From NCBI RefSeq assembly GCF_009730915.1, contig NW_024086423.1, positions 107,525 through 171,524 on the forward strand: a stretch of DNA of 64,000 bases. The letters run 5' to 3'. Within the stretch, counting starts at the first letter, position 1. Every line of letters begins with the position of its first letter. Shown piece by piece: positions 1-20,300 of this stretch. Origin of the DNA: Dioscorea cayenensis subsp. rotundata (Eukaryota; Streptophyta; Magnoliopsida; Dioscoreales; Dioscoreaceae). The position numbers and the translations under genes were made by a program. The notes below the pieces were generated by a model. That model had not been told where the DNA came from and did no database searches. It worked only from the letters and a program-made list of their open reading frames with translations.

Positions 1-2817
1 ATTCACTCCAACAAGCAGATCCAGGGAAACTAGAGCCGGATATAAGAAGGTCCGACATTTCTTTACATGCTATTATGATTAGAAGACAATTTCTTGGTTC
101 ACACATCTCAAACCTTTTGTGAACTTTTGATGCTTGTGTCTCATAATTCTCAATAATATCTAGATTTACAAGCTGCATCTCATTCTGGTTCTTCACGTAG
201 TGTTCTGTTTGTCATCATAGAACGTGTCTCTACCTTCGGCGGTGGAACTAGAACTAAAAGTTAAGGGGTGCTGACTTCAATCCAAAAAATAATATTAAAA
301 AAATATATTCATTTAAAATTGAGATTATAATAATTAATATTTTGAAAAATAGGGAATATGCATAATGACTATTACTATGAGGTAGTAGTTGAATCTTTCA
401 GCTTTGCATATTTTAAAATCCTACCAAAATGAAAACACCTGTTGTTCAATGTAGCATACCATTATATTATTTAACCATTTATCTCCCTTCATCTCCTATC
501 TTATTGTACAATCGAACTCGGTTTTGATAATATTCATTGCTAAAAAGGCCTTTTCAATTGATGCTATTGCCACAAGTAAGATTATAACCTATTCAATAAG
601 GTGATAAACCAGTTGAAAAACCAAATGCTTTCGCTTTCAACTAGTTTCGCATAAAAAATTCAAAACTTCTTCTAACATCATAAATGCGGGTGTAAAATTG
701 TTTGTTTAGAAATTAAAGATTTTATTTAGAAAGAAACATCATAATAAATTTTAACAAGGTGAAGTAGCCTACTATAGTAAAATCTAAAATAAAATAAATC
801 TCACGGTGTGCAAGTCTTAATTAAGACTTGCCCCGCCCCTGTCTGCCTTCGATCCCTTGAGATAAAATGATGGAATCACTTGATGGTGGTTTCTGATTGC
901 CTTTTGATAAATGATGGAATCACTTGATGGTTGTTTCTTATTGTTATTATTTCTATTGTCAGCATTCATTTTGATATTGACTGTTAATCTCTTACATTAT
1001 CCTGCTTAATATGTATTCTCGAAGTTTAATACACTTGTAATCTATCAAGTGTTAATTTTGTTTTGACATAAATGCACCCATGTATTCATATGCTGACAAT
1101 ATGCCGACATGCAAGTCGACGTGATGCAGAACTGCAGAAGTTCCCACGTGTGTAGGCAGACTGGCTAGTTAATTAGTATGTGTAAACTAATTGGTTCATT
1201 ATCACTGAGAAGCCCTCCTTATCTTGTAGGAGATTTAGTAGCACATAAATTAATTAATTTTCAAACACTGACGCAGCTGGAAGGTGGATGCTGTCCGAGT
1301 GATTGCCACTAAGGCTTTAACTGCATTTATAAAGACAAACTTCCTTACTTAGCCCATTTTATTGGTCAATTTATCCTTTTTCATGGTTTTATATCAGATT
1401 TGTGTTGGACATTTATGGAGCGGAGGCAAGAAAAGAGAAGGAAGCTGTTATATCCAAAATTCCTCTGTTTATTCCAAAGGTGACTATTTTCTGCTATATA
1501 TTTCTATATTTAGTGCTGTCTTCTATGAGATGGTGCAAATTTTAAGAATGTTACTTTGATAGGTGCCACAACAGAGAAATGGTGAGGAATGTGGTATCTT
1601 TGTTCTCTACTTCATATATCTGTTTGTCCAGAATGCACCTACGAGTTTCTCTCTGGATGGTTATCCATATTTTGTAAGTTAGTCTCTAATGATGAAGTGC
1701 CTATTTATCATTCTTTAGTTTAAAAATAAATTTATATTGTTAACATTGAATTTTTTTTTCTTTCCTTTTGTTCTGCAGCTCAAGGAAGATTGGTTTGCTC
1801 CAGATGACCTAGAAAGCTTTCGAAAGAAAATCCACTCTTTTGAATGTAGGTTTGAAATTCTTTAGTTACTTTTGTTTATTCTCATCTATGACTTGCATGC
1901 TACTGGTTAAAACATATGACCTACTTTAGTGAAGCAAATAATATGCTGCCACCTTGCAGCATGAAAAAGACAAAGCGAATAATCTTTTGTGACCCTTTCA
2001 ACAAATAATATAAGGCCCACTTAATATTGTTTCAATTTCTGATCGTTTTTTTCCCAAAAATTAATTCCATCAACCCAAAGCTTCAACTTAACAACCATTT
2101 TATCTGTTTCCTCGAAACAGCCCAAATGCAGCCTATCAAGCTCACTCAAACTGATCCTAACTTCGGAATTCTGATACCTTACATAAGAAAATACATATTC
2201 TGCGTTGCAACCAAATGTGTATATACACTTGCACTGTCTTGTTTGGGAACTCGACCTAACATACTTTTTCATGATTATATTTGATGGGCAATCAGGTAGT
2301 AAGAACATTGAATCTGATACTCGTCAGCAAAGGCATTTGGGGGGATCAGATTTATATGGTCTAACCCCTGAATGCAGAGAAGCTGTTTCCTCATCTGAGT
2401 CCCAAAATGTGGTTACAAAAAAAGAATGGGCCTTGGTGCCAGGGTGAGTTTTCTCATTACTAACCTGTTTTTGATTTTCAACATAGAAAATACAGTCAGA
2501 ACATGCTTTTACTTGGCCGTTTTATTTACAGACAAAATTTTTTTGACAATTGTTCATTTATAGTTTCTCGATTAGCTGTCTAAATTACCTGATGTCTATA
2601 ATTTATGTTTCTATGTTATTCTTGCTTCTCTATATAATTTAGATCTACCTGCCAACCTGCCCGTTTATTATGTCAATGCCAAAGCAGCCAAACCATAATG
2701 TCAAATGATAATTTCTATTGATACGAAAAATCAAGTTTATGCCAACACATACCATTCCACTATTAATATTCCTCTTGTTTCTGCAGGAGCAATGGAATGA
2801 TCGTAGACATCCAATGA
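1..2817 (+). CDS. Ulp1-type (C48) SUMO protease-like gene, 3' part (copy 1)
   Basis: The gene enters from the left edge, so its start and catalytic His exon lie outside the window. Exons read as <1-49, 1398-1479, 1563-1673, 1779-1845, 2296-2443 and 2787-2817, all with GT-AG borders and matching phase. The first exon ends in LEPDIRR; the third holds PQQRNGEECGIFVLYF, the catalytic-Cys motif of C48 cysteine proteases that cleave SUMO/ubiquitin-like conjugates; the fourth reads LKEDWFAPDDLESFRKKI. The last two exons add a polar tail of about 60 residues ending VDIQ-stop. The intact relative at 15.6-17.9 kb has the same exon sizes (82, 111 and 67 nt) but a much shorter tail. It resembles the small plant ULP-like proteins rather than the large OTS/ESD4 types. 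Family call is confident; substrate is unknown. Confidence 0.82.
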
Positions 2818-3502
2818 TGCACAGACTAAACTAACCTTTGTCAATATAAGCGGCAAAAGTGACAGGCATTGAATACCCCCCTTCTTGTTCCGACCTAAGT
2901 TCGTTCGTCTCAATTAGTAGACAATCATTCAGCGTATTTGTTCGAGCGGTGAACATCGCCATTCTTTTCATGTTGTTTCCCACTGGAGTTTGTTTGTTTG
3001 TCTACAAGATCACTGATTGAATTACAGTAACAGAAGATTGAATCAACAGATAGAATACGAAACTGCCTATCCTTTTCGTTGTTAAATGTCAAATATTACT
3101 AGTACAGATTAAACATTTCTTACATGTTTGATTAATGGATTTCCAACCAGTTCATGCTGAATACTGTAATACTGTGAGACCCTTGGTTTATTGTACATTG
3201 GTCTGTAATTCCAGGATTTATATCAGAATATATGAAGCAGCACTAGCAATCAACAGCTAACTTCAATTTACATGCCTGTCTTTTGTCTGATGTGATAAAC
3301 TTCAGCAGGAAAAAAGATACTCACAGCCTGTGTTTATCACTGTGACATTTTTTTTTCCAGTGATGAACAAATAAAAAATGGCCTGCTTAATTATTAAATT
3401 AGTAATAATGCTTAATTATTAATCTTGTGTGAAGATGCTAATAATGGTTGTTTATTTTGTTATTTAGGTTAAGTTTGGCTTGATGGGACAGACTATAACC
3501 TG
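2818..3502. other. 3' flank of ULP copy 1
   Basis: No gene is seen here. Around 3015-3060 the sequence resembles one unit of the 195-bp repeat found behind the intact ULP copy (shared word AACAGATAGAAT and similar flanks), so this is likely the single-unit ancestral form of that 3' region. Confidence 0.45.
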
Positions 3503-3577
3503 TGTTGGAAATATAGTGACACATCGGTTATGTGATTGAAGTGTAATGGGTTTATATATAGGTATAGGGTTGAGCTA
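3503..3577 (+). repeat. Truncated LTR fragment related to the solo LTR at 13.9 kb
   Basis: The stretch begins TGTTGGAAATATAGT and continues with ACACATCGGTTATGTGA and ATGGGTTTATATATAG, matching the first ~75 bp of the solo LTR at 13874. It then departs from it and has no matching 3' end, so it is a truncated or diverged copy. Confidence 0.6.
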
Positions 3578-4019
3578 ATGCACAATTAATGCATCATAGT
3601 ACCTAGCACAATGTCTTTATTTAGAAAGGCAAAATGACGTAGAGAGAATCGAGGTAAGTGTCCGTACTCATCTCTGTGATTTTTGGTTTATGTTTCCAAT
3701 TTTCTCCTTTTCTCCTCTAGTGGTTGCATATATGAGTTTATTTACTTTTTTTTTATGTGGATCTTGCAAAACATTTTGATCTTTACTTTTGTATATTGTG
3801 TCTTGTGTTTATTTACTGATCTTCACTTATTTTCCTCTCTTTTTGCATATCAGTTGTGATGTTGTGCTTTAGGGCAGAAACAGAAAAAATGGAAGTGGTT
3901 TGGGCAGTGCTTTTAACTTGAAGTGTGTTTCATTTTGGTTAGAGTGTTTGTTGCTCTGGTTTAGAAGAAATATCAATCTTCTCCATTTAGAATGTTGTAT
4001 AAGCTATGAAGCATCACAG

Positions 4020-4140
4020 ATACTCAACACAACATGACATGAAACGGGCACTGTGACACGCAACACAACATGACATGACACAGGCACTGCGACACGGTAA
4101 TTATTAAAAAATAAAGACATGGGTACGACAAGACACGGCA
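4020..4140. repeat. Short imperfect local repeat (CACAACATGACATGA)
   Basis: CAACACAACATGACATGA occurs twice within about 40 bp, followed both times by a GGCACTG(C/T)GACAC word. It is a small degenerate tandem array in the flank of the broken ULP copy; nothing suggests coding or a regulatory role. Confidence 0.5.
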
Positions 4141-4754
4141 ATAAAAAATATTTTAAATATATATCTATTAAGTAAAATATTTATTGTAAATGCAAATATT
4201 TATATTTTCCATACTTAAGGTTATTTGTTTTATAATTTATTTTGATTTTGATTTTATTATGTATGTTAGAAATCATATATGCTTATTTGATGAGAAGAAA
4301 AATAGACCCATTAGCACAGATCATACATCTGTGTTACAAACAATCAACGGCGAGGATCATCCCGGCTTTTAAAGAAAAAACCCTAGATCTTAAAAAAAAG
4401 CCTTCGGCTCCAAGGTGAGAGCTCGTCTCATAGCCGTCTTCCTTTATTTCCCATAACTATCTTCCTCCGCTCCACCTCTCATCACCTCCCTTCCTCTTTT
4501 TTCTAATCCCCCGCAAGCCTTGGCAAAGCCCACAACCCCTATAGACACAAGCCCAAGACCCAGCTAAGGCCCCAACTTCCTTGATCTTCCAAAAAAGGAG
4601 ATGGTGATGAAGTCAATGAGGGCTTTGACCGCGATGGTGGCAAGAGCGTCGAACTTCATGTCTAGCTGTGTTGACGGCATGCCTGTGTTGGACACCGGCG
4701 CAACACCAGTACGTCTTTGATGTGAGGGAAAATAGATGAGAAGGAAAGAAAATT

Positions 4755-5051
4755 ACTCCATCTGTCCCATTGTAAGTGTCCACTCTTATAAGCTTTTAAT
4801 TTCCCAAATTATCTGTCCACCTAACTAATTTAAGTGCTAATTTCTAAATTTAACTTTACTTATCTATTTAAATATATTGTTTTCTACCACTATTGTTTTA
4901 AATGCACAGTCTTAGTGGATGGAAGCTAAATGATGGGTACAATGGAAAAGTAAGCTAAATGTTTGTGAAATTTTGATTCCGACTACTTTTTTTTACCCTT
5001 TGTGAAATGATTAAGGTGGACACTTATGATGGGATGGACCGACAGAGGGAG
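4755..5051. mobile_element. Stowaway-like MITE
   Basis: The 297-bp element starts CTCCATCTGTCCCATTGTAA and ends ATGGGACGG-like / CGACAGAGGGAG in inverted orientation, flanked on both sides by TA. Subterminal inverted words AAGTGTCCAC and GTGGACACTT pair as well. TA target duplications and CTCCNTC termini are typical of Tc1/mariner-derived Stowaway MITEs. It is non-coding. Confidence 0.8.
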
Positions 5052-5680
5052 TAAAAGATAGAAATTTGATTTAGTGCATTACTTGGGTCAAGACAATAAA
5101 ATTGATAGATAATGCTCATCTTCTTCACCATTGTTCTCTTAACTTTTATTTGGCATCAATCTTCCAAATACTGGGAAACAAACATGGAATGTGGAGTTTT
5201 ATTATTAGTTTAATAAATTTCCTTTTAGGTTATGATTTTTGTAGGCATCTCACCCTTATGATTGTGATGTTTTTCTTGCCATTTTTTCTTTTGTTTAATT
5301 GCATCCAGAGTGTTTACCACAACCTCTTCTATTCTCTTTTTTTTTTTGTGACAATTAAATTAAGGATTTGCACGAGTATAGTGAAGAATGTGAATTATGA
5401 ACAATTTCCCTTTCAAGCAAGGCACAGTACAAGCAATCTACAAGCAATTGAGGCACTTGCCAAGTCTTTTATTTTTTTTATTTTATTTTTTTTTATAGTA
5501 TAGTTACTATTAGGTGTCCTACAAGGAAAGCGGATGAGCAGTTAAGTAACTCTGGAAGTCAAGCCTTTTCCTTCCTTGATTTAGTTCCTTAACACAAGCA
5601 ATCTCAAAGTCTTCAAACTAGCCGACTTTCATGTTCAAATGATCTGGAGAAGCTAAACATCATTATATTTGAGTCCCACT

Positions 5681-5830
5681 TTTGGTATATGGGAAAGTAA
5701 ACTTTGCAGAGAAGTAAAGCTTGTGAAAGACTTTCACAAGTTAGATTTTAATATGAACTATGTAAAGTAATAGTTTTTATGCAATTACTTTCCCTTTGAA
5801 CAGGGAAAATGATTCATAGGGGAGAGGGTG
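5681..5830. mobile_element. Possible hAT-type MITE or end of the inserted block
   Basis: GGGAAAGTAA near 5690 pairs with TTACTTTCCC near 5798, and GTGAAAGACTTTCAC lies between as an internal palindrome. A diverged version of the same words (GGAAAGTAATTG, AAGTCTTTCACTGCAAAG) occurs at 11.03-11.08 kb, at the other edge of the inserted DNA. It may be a small MITE or the left end of a larger element; I could not find a clear target duplication. Confidence 0.35.
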
Positions 5831-6136
5831 TGAAAAGGGTTATATAGTGGCTGTGAAAATGTGAGACAAGTGAAATTCCAATACTACCCCCTTATTTAAG
5901 TAAAAAAAATTTCTTTATCTTTTCTTGTCTTTGAAAACCATAAAGCAAAACTTCTCCGCTTTTCTTTCATTTCCAAAATCTTAGGGCAAGAGGGATCACT
6001 CCTTAGATCTTTTCTTATATTTTTCTTACTTTTTCAATATTTTTTTTTGTGGTGATACTTGTTTTTTGTTATTTTTTTGCCTTTTTGGAATAGGATTTTG
6101 GTTTTATGTATGTTTTTAATGAGTTCATTTAATGTA

Positions 6137-6387
6137 CTTCCTCCATTCCTTTTTATCTGTCATGGTTAACCGAATCTCACTTACCAAGAAATTTAGTTAT
6201 TTCACAAATTTTTATAAAAAATTACTTATCTTTTCAAAATTACCCCTAATTTATATTTTCACATTTCTCTCTTATATTTAATTCCAAGAAGAGAGTTGAA
6301 TATAGTGTTAAGGGTAGTTTTAGAAAAAAAATATTAATAAATGCTTCTTAATGTTAGAAAATGACAGATAAAAAGGAACGGAGGGAG
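6137..6387. mobile_element. Stowaway-like MITE
   Basis: The 251-bp element has termini CTTCCTCCATTCCTTTTTAT and, inverted, CTCCCTCCGTTCCTTTTTAT, continuing into ATCTGTCAT on both sides, with TA flanking each end. No coding capacity. It lies in the DNA that splits the ULP pseudogene. Confidence 0.85.
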
Positions 6388-7119
6388 TACAAGGGTTTGG
6401 TGGTGGGATATTGACTTTTATATGGTTTTTGTTTTTGTTTTAAAATTTTAACTTGAGTGATCAAGGGCAAATTGAGAATGGATATAACTTTACATATAAA
6501 CTTATTCAAACCAAATGAAGGAATTAACTTTACATGCATTTCAAATACAATTTTCATTATACAATTTTCAGCACTAACAAGTTCCAATTTTTTAAATCTA
6601 CTGCCAGGTGAGCCATACAAGGATAGGGAATTTAACTTATGTTGATCTCTGGCTGATCATGATTCACATGCTATGAGGGATATCGACCCAATTGGGCCTT
6701 CTATTTCAGAGGTAGGAACTGGAACATCTTGTGATCCACATACCAGCATCACTATGGAACCAGCGCAGCTGGGCTTACTTATTGGCAAATCAATTTCAGA
6801 GACAATACAGAAATTACAGGAGAATTTTTCTGTTAATTCACCAAACAAACCAATCTAAAATGTATGCCGCTGTGCGGCCATATTTAAATATAATATGTAG
6901 GCTACAATGGTTATTTACAGGATTATGTATTTTACAGTTTATGTAAAAATTTTCAAGGATTTTAATGTATTTGTATGAGTATGTATATATTTTGTTATAG
7001 AGATGTAGTAATCTTTAATTTATTCCTGTTTTTGTATTTGTTTTGTTATATATTTATCTGAATGAATTTTAACAAGAAATACATGCAATGTACATAATTC
7101 AGTTACTTTAAATACATCA
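6388..7119. other. Unassigned DNA with a 61-codon ORF (6673-6858, +)
   Basis: Between the MITE and the virus-like segment there is one ORF with relatively even base composition, MRDIDPIGPSISEVGTG..., 61 codons. I do not recognise it. A 55-bp stretch at 6509-6563 (CCAAATGAAGGAATTAACTT...) recurs as a direct repeat at about 10946-11000 near the other end of the inserted block. The ORF lies where complementary-sense genes would be in a begomovirus-like arrangement, but I see no convincing match to them. Confidence 0.3.
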
Positions 7120-8257
7120 TTACACATAACCAATCCTTGTATTAATACCCAACTGTACAGAAGTGGTTCCTTCACTATACCAAGTACAATACAGAAGCAA
7201 TGCATTCTTCAATGTGTTGGTGTATTGCCCGGTCTTTATTTTAGTTTCATCACGGAACACTGATCATACCGGATACCTAGATGACAATTTAATATACCGC
7301 CGTATGTCTTCAATATACAAGGCACCTGGTTTATTGATTACAATTTTCTTCTTACAGATTAGGGAGTATCTTGATCTTAGGGATGACTTAATTAATGCAT
7401 CTGCTGTGTAGTTTTCACTAACATTAAATATATCCTTAAAATCTGGAAGTGTCATTCCTCGTGGTCTCATGTCTTTCACTACAAATACACTAAGAACGCC
7501 CTGTAGTAAATATCTTGACTTATCATCAACAACCATCATATTTTGTTCTGGCAATTTCATAACTTTAACAGTTCCGGTTAAATACAAGGATCTCAGCATT
7601 ATGATTGATTTCTCCCTCTCGTTATCTTTTATACCAAATGATGGTAAGCTGAGATAGTTTATTGACCTATTACCAGGTTTAACAAGGTTTGCACCGAATT
7701 TAATAGGTTTTGTAATATAATTGATTTTAGATCACAGTAATGGTTTTTTTGTGATGATCCCAGTCAGTAGCCCACGAGAGTGCTGACGTCTGCCGTAGAA
7801 CGGTTGTCTGTATGGATATTTGTTCTTCATATACAGGGTATTATACCAAAGCTAGTATATGGTTGTCTGTTCCTATAATACATATACATGTTAGGGAATG
7901 CCATCTCTGCATGTAATAATAACCGTTGGCTAGTAATTTATATAGGACTTATATAACACTGTTATTTGCGTAAATTATATGCTAAAGGCTAGTATTAATA
8001 GATATTAGTACCTACTATCCTGTACTACTTATTTTAATACAAAACTATTAGTACTAATGATATTTATTTACATAAACCCGGTTTATATGTACTCAAATGA
8101 AAGAGAGATTACTTACATTAGACTGTCGCCTGAGAAATAATTTCTCTATGCATCACGTGGTGGATCCCACAAACACTACGTACACAAGATTGATCCAACT
8201 TTAATTCAAAACTGACCAATCTGGCAATGCCATGTGGCGGTACGGAGCGGCCATCCG
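7120..8257 (-). pseudogene. Endogenous geminivirus-like segment: degraded coat protein and intergenic region
   Basis: The longest open piece (7264-7599, minus strand) reads like the middle of a geminivirus coat protein: VFVVKDMRPRGMTLPDF is followed by an IFNV block and an LRSRYSLI block at the family's spacing. Related residues continue in other frames down to a stop at 7120, and an Arg-rich stretch lies upstream near 7780-7830, also out of frame. Farther up, TGGGATCCAC (8159-8168, minus) is placed where begomovirus V2/pre-coat genes begin. GCGGCCATCCG (8247-8257) equals one arm of the conserved replication-origin hairpin, but the nick nonamer and the other arm are missing. Hairpin, V2-like start and coat protein fall in viral order and spacing. 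Several frame breaks and stops make it inactive. Endogenous geminiviral sequences are known from Nicotiana and Dioscorea. No Rep gene was found beyond the hairpin. Confidence 0.66.
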
Positions 8258-9760
8258 CAGCACACGTATAAAAATTTAAAAATAAAAATAAAATTTACAA
8301 TTATTTCATTTTTCTCTAAAGTAAGAGAAATATGTTGTGTCGACTGCAATTAAAAGGGTAATAATTGTGAATGTTTGTTATAATTTAAGCTATTAATCAT
8401 TCTCTTAATTTTTGTGATAAAAATCATAAATGATATTTATCATATGGAGATTTTAGATAATAATCAAGGTATTTAGGGGATGATTGTATGAAGAATTAAG
8501 GGGTGGATTAAGCCTAGTTTAAAATTTTGACAAATGCTCTTTTTATGGTTTAGTCCCTTTTTTTATATAAATATAGAGGTTAATTTAGATTAAGGTACTC
8601 CCACTACAAGTCTGCAACCTCGAAATAGCTTAATCTAGATTATGAGACATACAAAAATTTTTATCACATTTTTTTTTGTTATTAGAAATTTCAGTTGTTT
8701 CTTTTGCATCCTTAACTCATCACCCTTTTGTGAGCGAGTGCTTGTGGTTTTTTTTTCTTAATCTTTAACCTATTATTTTGTGATTTTTTAGGATAGCGTG
8801 TGTTTTTATAATAATGGAGATAACAATGATACAAATATAATACAAATGTCACCAATTAACTATAGTTAAATAATTTTTATATGTATTATTATTAAAAGTA
8901 TGAATTATCATATATTTTGGTTTGATTCTTGTGTTATTTAATTTTGTTCCAACAGTGTTATTATATTATATTTTATATATTATATTAAGTATTATGCAAT
9001 AGCTGCATTATAAGTTGAAAATGAAATTATATGGCTAATTAAATTAGTTTAAGCAACTGATGTTATTGAAGGCATTGTTGTTTTTTTGCTTTAATTGGCA
9101 AGTTTGGGTGGTCAATCAATTTGTTTTCTACTGGCAAATAAAGGTAGATTTTGGAGAATTAAATAGGCTAATTTAATAAAATATTGTGTTTTTTTAAATT
9201 ATATCCCAAAATACGCATTTCCATAATTATTTATAGAAATGCGCATTTTATATTTTTTTATTATTTTTTTAAATTAGCCGGTCCCATTGTGGTTTTTTAA
9301 TATTTAAATTTATTTTTTAAAAAAACTAAAGGCCTATTATTTTTTTAATATTAAGTTTTTATTTTTTAAAAAACTGCGGCCCGGTAGTTTTTAAATTAAA
9401 AATATTTTACATCCAAACCCTTATAATTTTCATTAATTTTTCTTATAACTTATTTTTTCTCACTTCTACTATATTATTTTTACTTTCACTAATTGTAACC
9501 GGCTGTTAATAATTTAAATAAATAATTTTAATATTTTTTCATTATAAGGGGTTGTTGGGATGAATTATTTGTGGCATATGGCACCTACCCCATTCATGAG
9601 AGCCATTGGATGAAATTGATCTTGGGCATCCATTTGTTAGGTGGAGGCCTATATAAACCCTCAAAGTTCCTTTTCTAAAACACACAAGTATTTCTATAAG
9701 AAAAAAATTATCAATAAAAAAACTACAATGACAAAAATTTTAAAGAAGAGCTTCTCTCTA
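8258..9760. other. AT-rich intergenic DNA
   Basis: About 1.5 kb of very AT-rich sequence with poly-T and poly-A tracts. No ORF, RNA gene or clear transposon end was recognised. Confidence 0.6.
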
Positions 9761-10146
9761 TATTTGGGTACTTATTTTAGAGTATAAAATTATGGCATAA
9801 TATAGGTATTATGGCATAAAAAAATATTCCACTTAGAGTGGAATATTTTCCCATTGCAAAAAGTCTCTCTCTTTTTTAATCCAGCCACCAGTCATCAATC
9901 TACTGACGGTCCGGCCAACCTCCGGCGATCAGCCACCGGTCTGGCCAGCCTCCGGAGACCGGCCACCAGTCCCCCGACGGTCCGGTCGTCGATCACCCAG
10001 TCCCCGTAATGTTTTTTTTTATTTTGTTAACCAAACACTAATTCTGTAAGAATAAAATATGCCATAATTTCTGTAATAATCACTTGCACTTCCTGCATAA
10101 TAAAATTATACCATTTTTTTATTTTACAGCCAAACATGCCCTAAAA
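9761..10146. mobile_element. Candidate MITE with GC-rich core
   Basis: The left flank word TATAAAATTATGGCATAATA and the right flank words ATGCCATAATTT and AATAAAATTATACC form long imperfect inverted repeats. The right end, inverted, reads AGGGCATGTTTGGCTGTAAA, the sort of end seen on hAT MITEs. The middle (about 9890-10005) is GC-rich and built from repeated CGGTCCGGCC / CAACCTCCGGCGA-like words, in sharp contrast to its surroundings. No target duplication was pinned down. Confidence 0.4.
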
Positions 10147-10579
10147 GGAATTAAAACAAAAAATCAAGGCGTTTTAGTGCCTTCCACTCTTAATCCTCCA
10201 TCTAAACACCCTTCAGTAATTTTTTTTTCTAATTAGCGGTTTATATTTACTAATAATAATTAATAATTTTTCAAATATAATCAAGGATTAATATTTCTTC
10301 AACTATTTTCAAATCTTTTAAATACATTAATAATATTAACATTAATTAATGGCCGGATGGGCTTTGAACAAGATTGGGCTTTTTATATTCAACATATTAT
10401 CTTCCTTTGAAATTCCACAAAGACAATCTTTCTGGATGTTCAGAGCAAGAAACAAAATATTTTTTTGCTAAACATGTTGAGAGCAACTCATCTTTCTTCC
10501 TTCTCTTCCCCATCCTTCTTCCTACCCAACCTCAGACTCCCTCCCACTCATCTCCTCCTCTTCTCTCCCCTTCTCTCCT

Positions 10580-10927
10580 TTGAGAGGCCCCTGCTACTCT
10601 TCTCTTCCATTGCTTCACCTCCCTAGACTCTTCACACCCACCTTTTCACCTCCTTCCTCTTGTTCTCTCTTTAGCTGGAATCCATTCATGGGGACTAACC
10701 CCAGACTTTCAGGAAAAGGTTTGCCATCACTTTCTTTTTCTGTTTTTCCATCAAGAAATTCCAAGTTTTGTGCTTTGTTGAACTGTCTTTATGGCTTCTC
10801 TTTTTGCAGTTTGGTTTAGTGCTGGGAATGGTGAGTTGCAGAGTAAAGAGATATTAGTTCAGCACTTGCTTGTTGGTGGAGATGACCTTCAGCTCTTGGT
10901 GGAGCTACAAAAACGGATTTCTGGAGG
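10580..10927 (+). pseudogene. Fragment of a rhodanese/PpiC-domain chloroplast protein gene (first two exons)
   Basis: A Ser/Leu/Pro-rich transit-peptide-like exon (about 10580-10714, ending GTNPRLSGK with a GT donor) is joined in phase to an exon at about 10810-10927 reading WFSAGNGELQSKEILVQHLL and then a DDLQLLVELQKRI block. EILVQHLL and the block after it match the start of the PpiC-type peptidyl-prolyl isomerase domain of plant chloroplast rhodanese/PpiC proteins (Arabidopsis At5g19370 type). The rest of the PpiC domain and the whole rhodanese domain are absent, and the expected start position reads TTG rather than ATG. It is a dead gene fragment inside the DNA that splits the ULP pseudogene, probably carried by a transposon. 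Confidence 0.6.
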
Positions 10928-11097
10928 TATTATTTGGTTGAATTACCAAATGAAGGAATTAACTTTACATGCATTTCAAATACAATTTTCATTATACATA
11001 CCAAATATTATGTTGTTACTTTGTATGGAAAGTAATTGTAGGAAAAGACTTTACTACTGCAAAAGTCTTTCACTGCAAAGCACTAAATGGCCCCTTG

Positions 11098-12150
11098 GAA
11101 TGAGTTACTTGGGTTTGAGCTAGTTATGATGATGTAGCTGTATCGACTTACTGCGATATGAAAATGTATCCTTATTGATCCAGGGATTTGTGGAAGACTA
11201 TATCAGAAGAGAAGAGGCACCCCTTGATTCTTTATGTTTTTCTATGTATATGGGAGGATTCGCAAGAGAGAATGTGCTTAATTGGGTCACAAGAAGCATA
11301 TATGTTTCATGGAAGCATGTTTTGGTTCCCATTGTTTGCTGGTGAGTATCTCTTACAGATAGAAATTCTATTTTTTTCTTGGTGGCTTGACTTAATTGAT
11401 TCAATTAGGCCTTTAAAAAAAAAATTATAGGGACCACGGGAGGCTACTTACCTTTTGTAACTTTGGAGAAACAACACAAACAAACAACAAAAACCTTGCA
11501 TGACACTGCTAGATTCATTCCAATGAGCAGATCCAATGAAGCTGGAGCCCTATATATGAAGGCCTGCAATTGTTTTGCACCTTTCCTTTACATGCTATTA
11601 TAATTAAAACACATAATTCTTTGTTTCACATTTGTCAAAGGCTTTGTTGAACTTTTGGCAACTGTTTCTTACAATTCTCATTAACCTGCCTGATTTATAA
11701 AATGCATATTATCCTGATTCTTCATTTGGTACTATTATTCTGTTGTTTGTCACATAATGTCCCTGTGCCTTCAATCCGTCACTATGAAAGGATGGAATCA
11801 CCCAACAGTAGTTGCTCATTGTTTTGTTTATCTATTGTCATTCATCTTTGGATAATGGATACCTGTCCGAGATCCTATTTTGTTGTACTAATTTGGAAAA
11901 GATGTTCCTTTTAATGATAACTAGAATTGATGAGGCTGAGTAAGAATGCTAATGCATTACTTGGGTGTTGTTAGTATAGTAAAAAATTACTATAGCTCAC
12001 CCCCCAATATCTAAATATGGTTGTGCGTCATCATACCTACCAGCATGCATCCAAAAACATAGAAGATGTTTCTTCCCTCAAGCTATAGATGCTTAAGTTA
12101 CCATAAAGAGAGCAGGCCTTGGTGCAAGGATAGGGTTTCTCATTAATGAT
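11098..12150 (+). pseudogene. Broken ULP-like gene (copy 3, right half)
   Basis: Homology with the intact ULP copy resumes at intron 1 (GAGTTAC..., AGCTAGTTATG). Exon 2 (about 11187-11340) has lost about 10 nt, shifting the frame before the LDSL block. Exon 3 (about 11431-11556) changes the catalytic HW to HG and gains in-frame stops (FQ-stop, YI-stop). After intron 3 the sequence jumps by deletion to a remnant of the tail exon of copy 1 (about 12060-12135; GGCCTTGGTGC shared), losing the exons that would encode the catalytic Cys. At about 12150 it runs into DUF218 pseudogene sequence. Clearly non-functional. Confidence 0.78.
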
Positions 12151-13645
12151 CAGTTAAAATGTGGGAAGATTGATAGCAAAGATTCTTGGTCCTTGGAGTC
12201 ATACCTGAAAGACCCAAGCCAAGCTGCTGCTTTCACACACATCAAAGATGGCGCTGTTGCAAAAGATAAGAGGTCTCCTCTGTTTACTGCTGGGGAAAGT
12301 CCACAAGATGCTGACCTTGGCAAAAGGCTGAAAGTTTTTTGGTTGTTGCTGAGTCAAAAGGAAGGTTTGTTTACTTTTGCCCTTGACCCATCTCCTGAGA
12401 TAATATTTGACATTGGGAAATGTACATCTTTGGTGACTATCATAACTTTCGTGCAATGAAAATTAAATTTTGCATTGTCATATTCCTATTTTTTTGATGC
12501 AGTGTATGGATCTGATCAGTAAAGAAGAACCAAATAGATTTGATGTCTTGAACTGCAGATTGGTTAGTGCAATATCTATATTTTGAATGTGTAAGCTTGA
12601 GTAAAGATTTCCTGCACTATTTGATTGTAGTATCTAGTGGATGGCACGCAATGTGTTAATTTTCAGTGTTGATGAATCTTTGGGTGGGAGGTTAGTTAGA
12701 TATATCTATCTCCACTATCCACACATATTTGCTACATAATTTACCTTTTTTCCCCCTTAAGAAACATATATTTGAAGGAATATTAATTTTGCGATGTATA
12801 TGTTACATCATCAATTTGAGCTCAGAGAAACTTAGAGAAGCAGTTTGTTTGAATGTCTGCCCTTTCTTTTGGTTGTGATGGTAACATACCTAGGGAGAAT
12901 TTTGCTTTTGTAAAATAACTATTTTTAGTTTGAGTTATTGATGTTAATCACTTATAGATATAAGCAACCTAAAAGAATAAATCATTTGCAAAGTCTTTTC
13001 TTGCTTTCTCGTTTGGCACCTTTTGTTTTCTTATTTCAAGTAGAAGATATTAGCACTGCCAATTAGTTTCTGTTGACCACAGCTCATCAATGTGTCCTAT
13101 TGGCCGAGTTGGATAAGTAATGAAGGTTGCCTGCCAAAATTCTTACAACAAAAATTCCACTTGGAGCTGGTTGACAAGGTAGCTCATGTTAGTCCTATTA
13201 TTTCCTTCACATTCATTCATATCTAACATATGGTGTAGCATATCTTCCGATTCTCCATATCCCTACCTTACTTAATGGGTAAAGTTTTTCACTCTTGCTT
13301 GTCGTTTTCTGATTTCTGCTTTCTGTAATGGTTTTCTTGATCATGTCAAATTTGATAGGTTTCTTTGTACCACTGAAATTTTACTGAAATTGTCTTTTTC
13401 CCCCTTCTATTAGTGAGCCTTAGAGGTGGAAAATACGGTGATATGGACTTGTTGTCAATTTAATTGTAGTCTTAGATCTTCTGTGTTAGCTTCAAACTCT
13501 TCCGATTTTCATCCATTAAGCTTTACACTTGATGCTTAACAGGAGGCAAGGGACTGTGAGAAGCAGAGCACCAACAGAAGAGCATGCATGTGACCGCTTC
13601 GAGAATCTTCTACTCTGTGACTGATGGTACAAGAATTTACTGGAA
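12151..13645 (+). pseudogene. DUF218 gene pseudocopy, truncated
   Basis: Positions 12151-12366 match the second half of exon 1 of the intact DUF218 gene (GGGAAGATTGATAGC, AAAGATTCTTGGTCCTTGGAG, CACATCAAAGATGG). They lack the membrane anchor and have small deletions that destroy the FSGGETRKDAG block. The intron is still recognisable (12.37-13.54 kb), and about 13543-13640 matches exon 2 (AGAGCACCAACAGAAGAGCATGC) but ends with a frameshift. Exon 3 is absent. Together with the ULP remnant before it, this is the second copy of a duplicated ULP + DUF218 block. Confidence 0.8.
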
Positions 13646-13873
13646 CTTATCCTTAGAACATCATGTTCAGAATGTTCTTTTCTTTAGCATGTATTTGTAA
13701 TCACACAAGCATGCATTGAGTCTCTATTGTGGTTTAAAGTTGTCAAACTGAATTTCACTTAATTGCAATATTTAATCATGATCACCTAGAAGTCAGCTTT
13801 TGAGTCATACCATATCATAGAGAATTAGCAATCCTGCCTAACTTTTAAACCATTCATTATGAATCATTGGAAT

Positions 13874-14038
13874 TGTTGGAAATATAGTACCACATCGGTT
13901 GTGTGATAGTAGTATAATGGGTTTATATATAGTTATAGGGGTAGAGCCACTAAGTCTTGAGACTTTTTGGTGTAAGATCCCTAAACCCATATAGAGTCCA
14001 TATAGGGCCCACTAGTACCAAAAATATAAAATTTAACA
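13874..14038. mobile_element. Solo LTR (165 bp, TRIM-sized)
   Basis: The element starts TGTTGGAAATATAG and ends ATTTAACA, giving TG...CA termini with TGTT/AACA inverted ends. It is flanked by the 5-bp direct repeat GGAAT on both sides (13869-13873 and 14039-14043), as expected for LTR-retrotransposon integration followed by LTR-LTR recombination. The small size suggests a TRIM-type element. A related truncated copy lies at 3503. Confidence 0.82.
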
Positions 14039-14043
14039 GGAAT

Positions 14044-15564
14044 GATGCAACAAATTATAATTAGGTTTGTTGGAACCTGACCAATAAGTTACACCATATA
14101 TTATAAAGTGTAATATTAATGAACTTCCTAATTTGTTACCCACCTTGGTAAGAACCATATCTGAACACATCAGTAATCAAATAATAAAAAAATTTTAAAA
14201 TTCAAAGTTACAATTATCTATTTTTGGCATAAAAAAAGCCAATAAATTTTTCCCCTAAATCATTAAAACTGCTTGCAATGAATGTGCATTTAATGCATAA
14301 CAAGATAAATGGTACCAAGCTCAAAGTCTTCGATGTCCAATATTTATCTTCTGCACAGCACCAAAAAGGGGTTAAACAAGCCAGCTTTCTCTGTGGCATT
14401 TGGCAACTATGGCTTCAAGTCTGAAGGAGGGTTGTGGTAGGCGTCCATACTTACATCAGTGATTTCTATTCTGTTTTCCATGTTTTTCCCTTCTAAGGGG
14501 GGATATGCTCAATTTGGTTAACTTACTGGCGTTGATGTTATGGAAAGGTTCTAACTTGAGTTTATATTGTGTCATGTTTGTTTACTGATCTTTGTTTGTT
14601 TTCATCTGTCTTTGTGTATTAGTTGCAAGGTTGTGGTGTTAGGGCAGAGAAAGAAGAGTCTGGGAGTTCTTTTGGTTGTGTTTTGTGAATCTATGTGCCT
14701 TGAGGTATGCTTTGTTTTGATTAGAACACTGGTTGCTCTGGTTTATAACGTGTTGGTGTTCTCCATTTGGAATGCTGCACGAAGGGTGTGTTTGACTTGA
14801 GAGAAAACAGAGGAAGGTAAGGGGGAAAAGGAGAAATTTTGTTTCCCTGTGTTTAGTTGAGTGAAGAAAATAAAATTGATGGATGCTTCTTGACTAGGAG
14901 TATGTTTTATTTTGATTAGAATATTGGCCAATCTGCTTTACCACATGTGTTGATGTTTTCCTTTTGTAATGCTGTTGGGTATTTTTTATTTGACAGAAAA
15001 CAGAAGAGAACAAAAAATAAAATAAATGTTTTCTTGTGTTCACTTGACTGAAGAAAATAAAATTGATGGACAATACTGATTTTCCATACTTGTCTTCTGT
15101 TCCCCTTTGCTTCCTCAATTCTCAAGACATTGGAAGAGGAACGTAGAATGCAAGTTTTATTTATAGTTTAATACTTTTCCTTATAATTCACAGGCGGCTC
15201 TACCCAGTGATTGTGATGCTTTTCTTGCTATTTTTTCTTTTGTTTATTACCGCAGGAGTGCCATGTAAGCCGTAAACCCTTTTAAATTGGTTGTCTTCTT
15301 CTATATCATAAGTTGCAATATAAATGCGTCAAATGCATTTGCTTTATAATGGCCACATTTAATCTCTACTTTGCTTGACAGTTAAATTAGGAATGGTTTA
15401 TGAATGTAGTGAAGAGTGTGATATGTGATCATTCCAGCAAGGCACATAGCACAAACATAATCTACAAGCAGTGTCTATTTTAGTATTTCTTCATAGTGAA
15501 GTACAAAGCATCTTTTTTTATTTATTCATCTATTTTTGTAGCTACTAGCAGGAGTCGTATAAAG
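14044..15564. other. Upstream region of the intact ULP gene
   Basis: From about 14570 to 15490 this region parallels the flank of the broken ULP copy at 3.8-5.5 kb, so promoter and leader were part of the duplicated unit. AGAAAACAGA(A/G)GA and AGAAAATAAAATTGATGGA each occur twice about 190 bp apart (14795-14880 and 14995-15070), an internal direct duplication. No other gene was recognised. Confidence 0.5.
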
Positions 15565-17862
15565 ATGGCAGAGGAGCAATCAAGTAACTCTGGAGTTCAC
15601 CTCTCTTCCATTGGTTCTGTTCCTCAAAACAGCCATCCACAAAGGCTTCAGAGTGACAGAGCATTGCATTCAGATAATGAGAACATGATAGACACTGATC
15701 AGTTTGAATATTACTTAGAGTGAGTTACATTGTTTTGAGAGCTAGTTATGTTGATGTAGATATGGCCTTAACTGTCATCTGGCAATGTGTCCTTTTTATT
15801 GATGTAGGCATTTATGGGAAAATATAACAGAAGAGAAAAGGAGTTCCTTTGCATGTCTTGATTCTTTATGGTTTTATATGTACAAGAGAGCAGTGACAAA
15901 GGAAAAGGTGCTCAAGTGGATCAAAAAGAAAAAGATATTTAAAAGGAAATATGTTTTCATTCCAATTGTTTGCTGGTGATCTCTCTTTCATATGAAACTT
16001 TTTTTTTTCTCTAGCTGTGACTTCATTTAATATGTTTTTAAAAAAAATTTACAGGGGACACTGGAGCCTTCTTATCCTTTGCAACTTTGGAGAAAACAGG
16101 CAGCCTGACACTGAGAAGCCCTGCATGTTACTGCTAGATTCGCTCCATAAAGCAGATCCAAAGAGGCTAGAGCCGGATATAAGAAGGCATGCGCTTGTTT
16201 TTTGCCTTTCCTTTGCATGACAATATAATCAAAACACGGAATTCCTTGTTTTACCTATCTAAAAATTTTGTGAACTTTGGTAACTATTTCACATAATTCT
16301 CAATAACCATGTCTATTTGTAAAATGCATCTCATCCTGATTCTGCATGTGATTATATTATTTTGTCGGCTGTTACAGAACATCTCTATGCCTTCAATGCT
16401 CTATTATAAAAGGATGGAAGCACTCGCTTTTCATTGATTTTTGTTTCTTTCGGTGTTATTGCTTGATAATTAATACCTCTCATGATCTTATTTTGCTGTG
16501 ATACAAATTAAAATTTCTATTTATTGGTAACTAGATAACTAGGATGGATGAGGATGACGGCAGAAGGTAGATTTATTATTTTGATGTCGTACCATCCAAC
16601 ATCTAATGGTGTCTTGTGTATTATCAGCCTATTGGCATACATTTAGTGTGAAGAAAATTTATTGCCCTCTTGGTTTTAAATTTCAACTTTAAGATAATGT
16701 CTCTATTATGGTATCCTACTGCATACAATTGTTGCCTCTGGACTGTCAATTGTTTGATATAAATGCACCTATATTGTCGTATGTGGTGATATACAAGCAT
16801 TTATGGCAAACTGCATAGTTATTCTGTTGTATGTGGTAATCACTAGGTATATCACCTCGAAGGAGACCTTATAATATTGATTATCGCTTGCATTTATTAT
16901 TGCCAAACACTAAGGCAACTGGAACAGGAAAGCTGTCTGAGTGGTTGCTTTTTAGCAACATTAATAATGAGAAACTGCATTATGCAGCAACTTTTATTGG
17001 TCAATTTACACATGTTCATGGTTTTAAATAGATTTGTGTTGGACATTTGTCGAACTGAAGCAGGGGATGAGATGAAAGAGGATATATACAAAATTCCTCT
17101 TCTTGTTCCCAAGGTGATCATTCTCTGCCATATATTTCTTTATATATTACTGCATTATTCAATACGATGACGCAACTTTTACAATGTTACTATGATAGGT
17201 TCCACAGCAGAGAAATGGTGTGGATTGTGGTATCTTTGTTCTCTACTACTTACATTTATTTGCCCAAAATGCCCCCGCAATTTTCACTCTGGATGGCTAT
17301 CCATACTTTGTAAGTTAGTCTCTAATGATGAAGTGCCTATTTATATATGCTGGAGTCTAAAAATTAATTTACATAGTGAACATTGAACTTTTTTTATTGT
17401 GTTTTTTCTTCAGCTCAAGGAAGACTGGTTTAGTCCAGATGACCTAGAAAGCTTTCGGAAGGAAATCTATTCTTTTGAATGTAAGTTTGGAATTATTTAC
17501 TTACTGTTTTTTACTTGCATCTGTCACTTTGATGCTGCTGAGAATAAAAGAATCAACAGGTCTAGTTTACTGAAGCTAATAAATGTTAGTGACCAATCAA
17601 TCTTGCGAACCTTTCACCATTAAAATATGATAAAAATTATTTACAGCTCTCAATTCTCTTTGAAATATGGATATCTCACATACAGATAAACATATATATG
17701 AATAAATGTTTGTGTGTTTTTTTTCTTTGCTATCAAACATGTAAATAATAGACGTTTACTCTATTCTTTGTACTTTTATTGTTTGGACAAAGCTCCTAAC
17801 ATAGCTTTCTTGATTACCTTTGGTGATTAGCTCATAAGAAACTGAAACTTAATACTCACTAG
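15565..17862 (+). CDS. Ulp1-type (C48) SUMO protease-like protein, intact copy 2
   Basis: Seven exons (15565-15719, 15808-15975, 16055-16186, 17032-17113, 17199-17309, 17414-17480, 17831-17862) give a 248-residue protein with phase kept at every junction. Catalytic residues are all present: His110 in GHWSLLILCNFGE, Asp136 in CMLLLDSL, and Cys189 in PQQRNGVDCGIFVLYY, with the usual Gln ahead of the Cys. The protein is little more than the protease core plus a polar N-terminus of about 50 residues, so it matches small plant ULP-like proteases; a role in SUMO or ubiquitin-like processing is inferred from family. The start is the ATG in AAGATGGCAGAG. Intron 3 has a GC donor (AAG|GCATGC). The last exon is only SHKKLKLNTH, much shorter than the tail of copy 1, and tandem repeats follow at once. 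Confidence 0.85.
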
Positions 17863-17912
17863 CAAAGGAAGCTGGGATGATTAAGCATTGGCATCAATTT
17901 ATTTGAAGGCTT

Positions 17913-19665
17913 GATACCTCCGCTCAGAGTTCTTTTACATGTAGCCAATCATGCAGTCCTGTTGTTTTCATGCCATGTCCTGCAGGACTATGCCAGCATG
18001 CTTACAGTTACCGGTCAATCACAGTAATCAAATAAACAGATAGAATCCACTAGTGACTATATTTTCTGTTTGTTAATTTCAAAGATTGGCGTAATCCAGT
18101 TGTTTGATACCTCTGCTCGGAGTTCATTTACAAGTGGTGGCCGATCATGCAGTGTTGTTGTTTTCATGCCATTTCCTGCAGGACTATGCCTCCAAGTTAC
18201 AGTTACTGATCAATAACAGTAATCGAATAAACCAATAGAATGCACTAGTGATTATATTTTCTGTTTGTTAATTTCAAAGATTGGTGTAATCCAGTTGTTT
18301 GATACCTCTTCTCAGAGTTCATTTACAAGTGGCAGCCGATCAGGCAGTCCTGTTGTTTTCATGCCATGTCCTGCAGGACTATGCCAGCATGCTTACAGTT
18401 ACCGGTCAATCACAGTAATCAAATAAACAGATAGAATCCACTAGTGACTATATTTTCTGTTTGTTAATTTCAAAGATTGGCGTAATCCAGTTGTTTGATA
18501 CCTCTGCTCGGAGTTCATTTACAAGTGGTGGCCGATCATGCAGTGTTGTTGTTTCATGCCATTTCCTGCAGGACTATGCCTCCAAGTTACAGTTACTGAT
18601 CAATAACAGTAATCGAATAAACCAATAGAATGCACTAGTGATTATATATTCTGTTTGTTAATTTCAAAGATTGGTGTAATCCAGTTGTTTGATACCTCTG
18701 CTCAGAGTTCATTTACAAGTGATAGCCGATCAGGCAGCACCGTTGTTTTCATGCCATTGCCTGCAGGACTAAGCCGCCAAGTTACAATTACTGATCAATT
18801 ACAGTAATCGAACAAACAGATAGAATGTACTAGTGACTATATTTTCTCTTTGTTAATTTCAAAGATTGGTGTAATCCAGTTGTTTGATATCTCTGCTCGG
18901 AGTTCATTTACAAGTGGTGGTCGATCATGCAGCGCTGTTGTTTTCATGCCATTTCCTGCAGGATTATATCGCTAAGTTACAGTTATTGATCAATTACAAT
19001 AATCGAATAAACAGATAGAATGCACTAGTGACTATATTTTCTGTTTGTTAATTTCAAAGATTGGTGTAATCCAGTTGTTTGATATCTCTGCTTGGAGTTC
19101 ATTTACAAGTGGTAGCCGATCAGGCAGCGCCGTTGTTTTCATGTCATTTCCTGCAGGACTATGTCGCCAAGTTACAGTTACTGATCAATAACTGTAATCG
19201 AATAAACCAATAGAATGCACTAGTGATTATATTTTCTGTTTGTTAATTTCAAAGATTGGTGTAATCCAGTTGTTTGATACCTCTTCTCAGAGTTCATTTA
19301 CAAGTGGCGGCCGATCAGGCAGCGCTGTTGTTTTCATGCCATTTCTTGCAGGACTATGTCGCCAAGTTACAGTTACTGATCAATAACAGTAATCGAATAA
19401 ACAGATAGAATGCACTAGTGACTATATTTTCTGTTTGTTAATTTCAAAGATTGGTGTAATCCAGTTGTTTGATATCTCTGCTCGGAGTTCATTTACAAGT
19501 GGTGGCCGATCATGCAGCGCTGTTGTTTTCATGCCATTTCCTGCAGGACTATGTTGCCAAGTTACAATTACCGATCAATAACAGTAATCGAATAAACAGA
19601 TAGAATGTGCTAGTGACTATATTTTCTGTTTGTTAATTGCAAAGATTCGTGTAATGCAATTGTTT
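17913..19665 (+). repeat. Nine tandem copies of a ~195-bp unit behind the ULP gene
   Basis: The word TTGTTTGATA(C/T)CTC recurs with unit starts near 17913, 18106, 18301, 18497, 18691, 18886, 19081, 19276 and 19471, and a decayed start at 19666, a spacing of 193-196 bp. Each unit carries GTTTTCATGCCATTTCCTGC, an AACAGTAATCGAATAAAC(A/C)(A/G)ATAGAATG block, and TTTCTGTTTGTTAATTTCAA. The units are highly similar, so expansion is recent. The array begins 50 bp after the ULP stop codon, probably within the 3' UTR. No long ORF runs through it. Confidence 0.95.
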
Positions 19666-20300
19666 GAGTATGTGTTGTTTTTGTGAATTTCTCACTTATG
19701 AGTTAGACCTCTGGTTTGTTGTATATGAATGTGTAATTCTTAGTTTCATATGAGAATTAACTTCAGCAATGGCAATGAAGAGCAGGTGCTGTTCTCCCTG
19801 TTGAACTTCTATTTTAGTTTTTAGCTTTTAGGGACTTGTCCTCGTATCATGGCCTTTTTGTAGTTCTGAATTAAGTTTTATGAGGAATGTGTAGGGTATT
19901 ATCTCTTAGTTATAAAAAAAATGCTGACAACCTTTTGATCTATTAGCACACAGCCTCTCTTAGGAAGGTTATAATTGCAATTCACATTCACGACATGATT
20001 ATATAAAAACCAAATAAAATTGTATAAAATTACATGTAGTACTGAATCTTTTTTACGTTCTCATCAGTGAGGGTATATGTATTTTTTAGCTTATTTTACA
20101 TCTATTTCTGACACAAGTTTATTGCATTTTGTAAAACATATAATAACAATGAAATAATATGAACAATAATTTACAGGATTTCCAACTTACTTTCTCTGTT
20201 TTAAGTATTTTATGCAATTTTTCATAAACTCAGGCGCTTATATGCAACAAAATTCAGTAATTCGAGATTTTTTGGGGGTTAATTAGAAAACAATTCGTAC
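19666..20300. other. Intergenic spacer between ULP and DUF218 genes
   Basis: AT-rich, with sequence at 19670-19770 resembling the end of the copy 1 flank (3130-3230; CCTCTGGTTTGTTGTA against CCTTGGTTTATTGTA). No gene was seen. Confidence 0.5.

Follow-up and report, generated by a model that had tools for sequence, protein, structure and literature searches.

A decayed geminiviral insert among plant genes

The window, i.e., the whole 64,000-nucleotide stretch of Dioscorea cayenensis subsp. rotundata analyzed here, contains a fragment of geminiviral DNA at positions 6567–8260, around which plant genes are present. The virion sense of this insert lies on the minus strand, and the insert keeps the BV1 gene for the nuclear shuttle protein (NSP) and the end of the movement protein gene BC1 (BL1). 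Read in the virion sense, it begins with the 3′ half of the origin hairpin and the last base of the nonanucleotide TAATATTAC (8247–8260, minus strand), as determined by placing the junctions beside the origin of a related locus, L011. A non-coding motif of the type GTGGGxCCCACCACGTG (8154–8170, minus strand), with similar letters in eight other copies, comes next, followed by the BV1/NSP pseudogene (7123–7904, minus strand) and the BC1 remnant (6568–6714, plus strand), which is convergent with BV1.

The limits of the insert were obtained with blastn against a sample of relatives, which comprised 32 of the 52 genome regions wanted, namely 31 loci (L009–L039) and the window's own neighborhood. 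The homology formed a single match of ≥ 1.38 kb with 72–82% identity in 11 of the 31 loci. The alignments begin at 8255–8263, and in the copies that reach that far they stop at 6567; the nick side of the insert is placed at 8260, and the insert is cut at 6567 inside BC1. With viral DNA joined to host DNA and inactivating lesions in the viral part, it is an endogenous geminiviral element, and it is one member of a family of related insertions within the yam genome. We consider it very likely that its source was an old begomovirus-like virus of yams with a bipartite genome, and that it represents a truncated and decayed copy of the movement component, DNA-B. The sequence-only reading had proposed an old geminivirus-derived insertion on the minus strand at 7120–8257, which is borne out by the match to the Pfam family PF00844 and by the homology to viral units of 2.49 kb. 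All three sequence pieces that it cited are present where it placed them. Its location was correct, but its length was not, the true extent (about 6567–8260) being some 550 bases greater.

A self-blast search showed that a block at 5616–11093, which includes the viral insert, is missing from a paralogous host segment, where just 63 bases, between 15650 and 15714, lie opposite it. Colinear self-matches of approximately 71% identity flank the block (5473–5615 with 15513–15650, and 11094–11925 with 15714–16535). Therefore, the viral insert sits inside a larger block that is absent from the paralogous segment. The same type of search detected a 54-base direct repeat on the plus strand, with the first copy at 6510–6563, no more than 3 bases from where the insert is cut off, and a second, 100% identical copy at 10945–10998. 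This repeat may be a target duplication or templated filler. The six frames of 2101–7100 and 8261–13250 contained no protein family at E 1, and no Rep match in particular, in a profile search of limited sensitivity that also missed the BC1 remnant.

Several other features of the window were recorded as separate observations. Within positions 1–17500, part of a host gene is duplicated in tandem or incompletely (1249–1864 and 16892–17499 match at 79%), and nine 195-bp tandem units with 90% matches occupy 17911–19667. An element of about 260 bp at 6133–6391 is bounded by inverted repeats of 31 bases (94%), of the type TACTTCCTCCATTCC / GGAACGGAGGGAGTA, and resembles a Stowaway-type MITE. We considered and rejected another origin or tandem copy close to 6880, since the local alignment score was 46 against a shuffle mean of 52.4.

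Identity of the virion-sense gene

The virion-sense gene contains a 155-codon open stretch (7267–7731, minus strand), to which the KDMRPRGMTLPDF reading belongs and which matched the Pfam family Gemini_coat (PF00844) with 55.1 bits (E = 9.6e-15; cut-off, 33.9). A piece in the same frame, 7123–7263, matched later profile positions with 22.6 bits (8.3e-05), below the cut-off. The gene has two premature stops and one frameshift near its start, the latter placed by eye from an N-terminal match to the relative P0002, and we therefore regard it as a pseudogene of the coat protein (CP)/NSP family. A structure model of its reading had a mean pLDDT of 33, too low to be of use.

Pfam describes PF00844 as coat protein / nuclear export factor BR1, and because the family holds both CP and NSP, the match alone cannot prove a CP. 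Thus, the profile search by which the sequence-only reading had suggested checking its coat-protein claim did return a significant match, but to a profile that spans both proteins. The only credible matches of the window reading in the PDB were geminivirus capsid chains (6f2s and 6ek5; E = 7e-05 to 1e-04), and in the best stretch 18 of the 50 residues aligned with a solved begomovirus capsid were identical, as counted by eye. Among divergent relatives, pieces of L018 and L020 also matched capsids (E = 3e-07 and 4e-08) in this search, which does not tell CP and NSP apart, and those of L024 and L016 had no PDB match at 0.01. Relatives in the protein collection numbered 3 when a single sequence was used, 10 with a profile, and 9 with a wider profile up to E 10. 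These proteins are unnamed, have 50–77% identity to the window and ≤ 178 residues, and come from contigs of < 1.9 kb. Neither the viral nor the prokaryotic contig collection yielded a relative; the viral one also gave no match to a capsid fragment from a known begomovirus, so the absence of relatives there says little.

It was on gene order that the coat-protein reading was rejected. In a DNA-B component, BV1 faces BC1. The BC1 remnant of the window, identified by tblastn with a BC1 piece of L011 as the query, comprises 49 residues with 73% identity (E = 8.5e-19) and contains one internal stop; the Pfam profile misses it, and it was found solely with this close relative as the query. Because BV1 faces BC1 as in DNA-B, the window gene is very probably the BV1/NSP gene of DNA-B and not the CP gene of a DNA-A-like genome. 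In L011, the complementary-sense open pieces matched the Gemini_BL1 movement protein family (E = 3.4e-59, 3.9e-42, and 1.3e-10). The DNA-B units of this locus are in tandem (offset, 2491 nt; 98.8% identical over 2863 nt), with the nonanucleotide TAATATTAC at 6371 and 8865. BC1 was detected by tblastn in 21 of the 31 sampled loci.

After split matches were merged, the coat/NSP matches in the genome corresponded to 57 loci. A convergent BL1 match lay within 1.5 kb of the 3′ end in 28 of these loci, and any BL1 within 3.5 kb in 33, whereas a BL1 on the same strand within 1.5 kb was found in only two. The window's own locus is among the 24 without a BL1 profile match within 3.5 kb because its BC1 remnant is too short for the profile. 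Given these 24 loci and the two same-strand cases, some of the 60 coat/NSP matches may be of another nature. In the DNA-A position, i.e., within 2.2 kb, a convergent Rep occurred at 0 of the 57 loci, against 140 Rep matches listed.

We weighed these data against the original interpretation, in which the insert is a remnant of the coat protein gene, together with V2, of a DNA-A or monopartite geminivirus. The PF00844 match and the capsid chains in the PDB agree with it, but the convergent BC1 in the window and in its relatives and the lack of a convergent Rep at all 57 loci do not, and even the best of the 60 genome matches reached merely 95.8 bits. The letters that had been read as the start of V2 also count against it. 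TGGGATCCAC occurs exactly once in the window (8160–8169, minus strand), and with one mismatch it has four matches against 2.44 expected, which is not significant alone; it was found in 0 of 32 other loci when both strands were searched, and the piece carrying the V2 reading (8121–8294) matched no protein family. In eight other copies, a motif like GTGGGxCCCACCACGTG is equally far from the nick. The letters are present, but they belong to a non-coding motif and do not mark a V2 gene. This motif looks like a conserved regulatory element and may resemble the begomovirus late element. On these grounds we regard a coat protein remnant as highly improbable and replace that claim with BV1/NSP.

Copies in the yam genome and the DNA-A partner

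The 584-Mb genome contained 60 coat/NSP (Gemini_coat) matches, 52 of them above the cut-off, and none were detected in 14 control genomes. A 25-base primer for sp1, a sex-linked marker of white Guinea yam (PMC5604175), has a single exact match in this genome, on contig C11; the same paper assigns the sex-linked region to pseudo-chromosome 11, which makes D. rotundata or a near relative the most likely host. Stops were present inside 46 of the 60 matches, and the other 14 had no stop in the matched stretch. BL1 matches numbered 63 genome-wide. The Rep-like pieces that the sequence-only reading had recommended seeking elsewhere in the genome are abundant, with at least 140 Rep matches (150 of the 163 candidates were scored). 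A Rep lies within 25 kb of 19 of the 57 NSP loci, a proximity for which chance would allow no more than 1.2% of the genome. As a side observation, the NSP-like piece ends at profile position 160 at two loci on C17 (C17:14341638–14342482 and C17:10510990–10511818), and a Rep starts 54 and 62 nt after it on the same strand, giving a recurrent chimeric junction.

On C18, five Rep matches on one strand lie beside a DNA-B array, and the first four are approximately 2.49 kb apart. The sampled part of this Rep array, L041, is a tandem (93.9% identical over 3154 nt) that encodes Rep (AL1, 1.3e-43) and REn (AL3, 3.8e-31); no CP match was found in the ten pieces of L041 scanned, four of which were virion-sense. 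Between REn and the common region, a stretch of about 790 nt (L041:3910–4697), the usual place of the coat protein, has no Pfam coat match.

A shared common region is the mark of cognate bipartite components. The 187-nt common region around the hairpin is 88.8–90.9% identical between L041 (DNA-A) and L011 (DNA-B), and therefore the genome was entered by both viral components, or by relatives of each. The window retains only the virion-sense end of this region. The two components with their shared common region constitute fossil evidence that the genomes were bipartite when the arrays entered. Adjoining a DNA-B copy, L015:4612–7501 is a tandem of DNA-A derivatives of approximately 843 nt with the full common region (94.7%). 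The AL1 match of their Rep pieces breaks off at position 82 of 113 and continues in AL1_M, indicating an internal deletion, and such short derivatives may have acted as interfering molecules. A bolder suggestion is that the two arrays are the fossil pair of an extinct bipartite lineage in which the coat protein had been lost from DNA-A and both movement genes had been retained on DNA-B. Such a capsid-less replicon would have relied on cell-to-cell and germ-line passage, with insertion repeatedly begun at the Rep nick, but we consider this scenario unlikely.

The window insert belongs to a known kind of sequence, the endogenous geminivirus elements. The Nicotiana GRD sequences derive from a Rep-bearing component, unlike the DNA-B element described here. 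Like the yam copies, they are multicopy nuclear DNA of begomovirus origin (as cited in PMC7758297). Begomovirus DNA-B resembles the yam element in its convergent BV1-like and BC1 genes, its unit of about 2.5 kb, its hairpin with TAATATTAC, and its common region shared with a Rep-bearing component, the unit and hairpin being known here from relatives and the common region from L011 and L041. However, the yam element is chromosomal, truncated, and broken, and the window has just one half-hairpin.

The yam elements EGV1 and EGV2 were described by rep and ren, with no detected coat protein (Filloux et al., 2015; PMC5014472), and the D. rotundata row of a table in that paper has two plus signs, which we take to stand for EGV1 and EGV2. 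They share Dioscorea hosts with the copies reported here, the tandem EGV1 units contain TAATATTAC, and the DNA-A array L041 resembles them in having Rep and REn without a detected CP. In contrast, the window element is the DNA-B side, and the terms "DNA-B" and "bipartite" do not occur in the text of PMC5014472. That the coat protein is missing from endogenous DNA-A, both in L041 and in EGV1 and EGV2 as presented in that text, is a testable question. The nearest prior report that we found is one sentence in PMC7758297 on potential NSPs in D. alata and Camellia sinensis. These are also NSP-like sequences near endogenous Rep genes, but the text of that paper describes for them neither a unit nor its borders, and neither pairing with BC1 nor a matching common region, and the term "DNA-B" does not occur in it. 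This survey, the largest of endogenous geminiviruses that we found, is anchored on Rep according to its text, and therefore loci with no Rep nearby, like the window, would not have been sampled; DNA-B fossils without a nearby Rep are missed by such a design. In the main texts of the open-licence literature searched, we found neither endogenous DNA-B units described, nor a common region shared between endogenous components, nor DNA-B borders at the nick. What looks new is the pairing of DNA-B and DNA-A in one genome through a shared common region, together with the repeated borders at the nick.

Borders at the nick and entry into the genome

We take the position at which Rep nicks the nonanucleotide to be TAATATT^AC. 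The hairpin arm GCGGCCATCCG is exact at 8247–8257, which is its only exact copy in the window, and it sits at the start of the stretch homologous to the 2.49-kb viral units. The sequence-only reading had identified these 11 bases correctly, and its claim that the insert breaks off at the hairpin was confirmed to base level by alignment beside the intact origin of L011. At the nick, this tandem origin reads ...CATATTAATATT | ACTGCGGATGGCC..., and the window border reads ...CGTGTG | CTGCGGATGGCC...; the first base of the window insert is thus the final one of the nonanucleotide TAATATTAC, which puts the border 1 nt from the nick.

Eleven copies, including the window, were inspected because their alignments ended near the nick; one further site, L010a, turned out to have its origin intact. 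The first base of the copy is the A following the nick in L009, L010b, L011, L012, and L018, and the C that ends the nonanucleotide in L014 and the window. L017 starts one base ahead of that A, and the starts of L019, L022, and L025 lie four to five bases in from the nick. These 11 copies, with nick-side borders within 6 nt, represent 8 independent junction classes (the window and seven others): L011, L012, and L018 have a DNA-A flank in common, as L022 and L025 have a flank of 400 nt at 94%, and the remaining nick-side flanks (400 nt each) showed no similarity to one another at E 1e-3. Of the eight classes, at least three, namely L010b, the group of L011, and L017, join viral DNA to viral and not to host DNA, partly head to head with a DNA-A derivative. 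The far side of L009, which ends at TAATATTACT, also lies at the nick, and this copy is therefore a complete unit that was opened there. Not all copies stop near the nick: the end of L015 lies 36 nt in, and that of L013 well inside the unit. Eight nick-side ends among 60 would give p ∼1e-09 if ends were uniform, but the ends were picked by eye and the total was guessed, and we read this value as strong enrichment and not as an exact figure. The eight junction classes within 6 nt of the nick form a natural set for testing how ssDNA viruses enter chromosomes.

We propose that Rep supplied in trans by DNA-A would have nicked DNA-B at TAATATT^AC during rolling-circle replication, and that the resulting linear molecules or multimers, one end of which lay at the nick, would then have been end-joined to chromosomal breaks. 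In an alternative order of events, the nick-ended products would first have been end-joined to other viral molecules. Insertion would have occurred several times, from diverged viruses, and each copy would have decayed afterward. The window copy would have lost its far end inside BC1, beside the 54-base direct repeat, which possibly came from break repair.

A single capture, after which one element spread inside the genome in a transposon-like manner or by segmental duplication, could account for the junctions that some copies have in common (the DNA-A flank of L011, L012, and L018, and the flank of L022 and L025). However, the mutual dissimilarity of the other nick-side flanks argues against it, and so does the codon-position test, which covered 154 codons in 20 NSP copies (190 pairs). 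The differences between loci were mostly at third codon positions, with far fewer at second positions, as expected from selection before insertion. The window differed from L009 at 8 second and 52 third positions (p = 5e-09) and from L019 at 10 and 28 (p = 0.005), and in the six of the 19 window pairs that were tested, all p values were at or near 0.02 or below. Two local duplicate pairs had no such bias, with 5 second- versus 4 third-position differences in L022/L025 and 7 versus 8 in L017a/b; a further local pair, L017a/c, had about 4 versus 7, and L011a and L011b were identical across the 154-codon alignment. A single capture is accordingly an unlikely explanation.

The codon-position bias could also have arisen if NSP/BC1 copies had been kept as working plant genes after insertion. 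The 14 of 60 matches without a stop fit such domestication, and in the text of PMC7758297 the rep genes of yam EGVs are reported to have retained coding potential after integration. On the other hand, the window copy itself is broken by two premature stops and a frameshift, 46 of the 60 matches contain stops, and no such bias is seen within the two local duplicate pairs tested, so we judge domestication to be very unlikely. The simplest reading of the codon pattern is repeated insertion, in which most of the divergence would have arisen in replicating viruses, several diverged viruses would have inserted, and the copies would then have drifted.

The entry of the bipartite arrays is datable through host orthology. 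The divergence between tandem units is 1.2% in L011 and 6.1% in L041, and the median KS between D. alata and D. rotundata is given as 0.064 in the text of PMC9010478. If its units were alike at entry and were not homogenised later, the L041 array would be approximately as old as the split between these two species.
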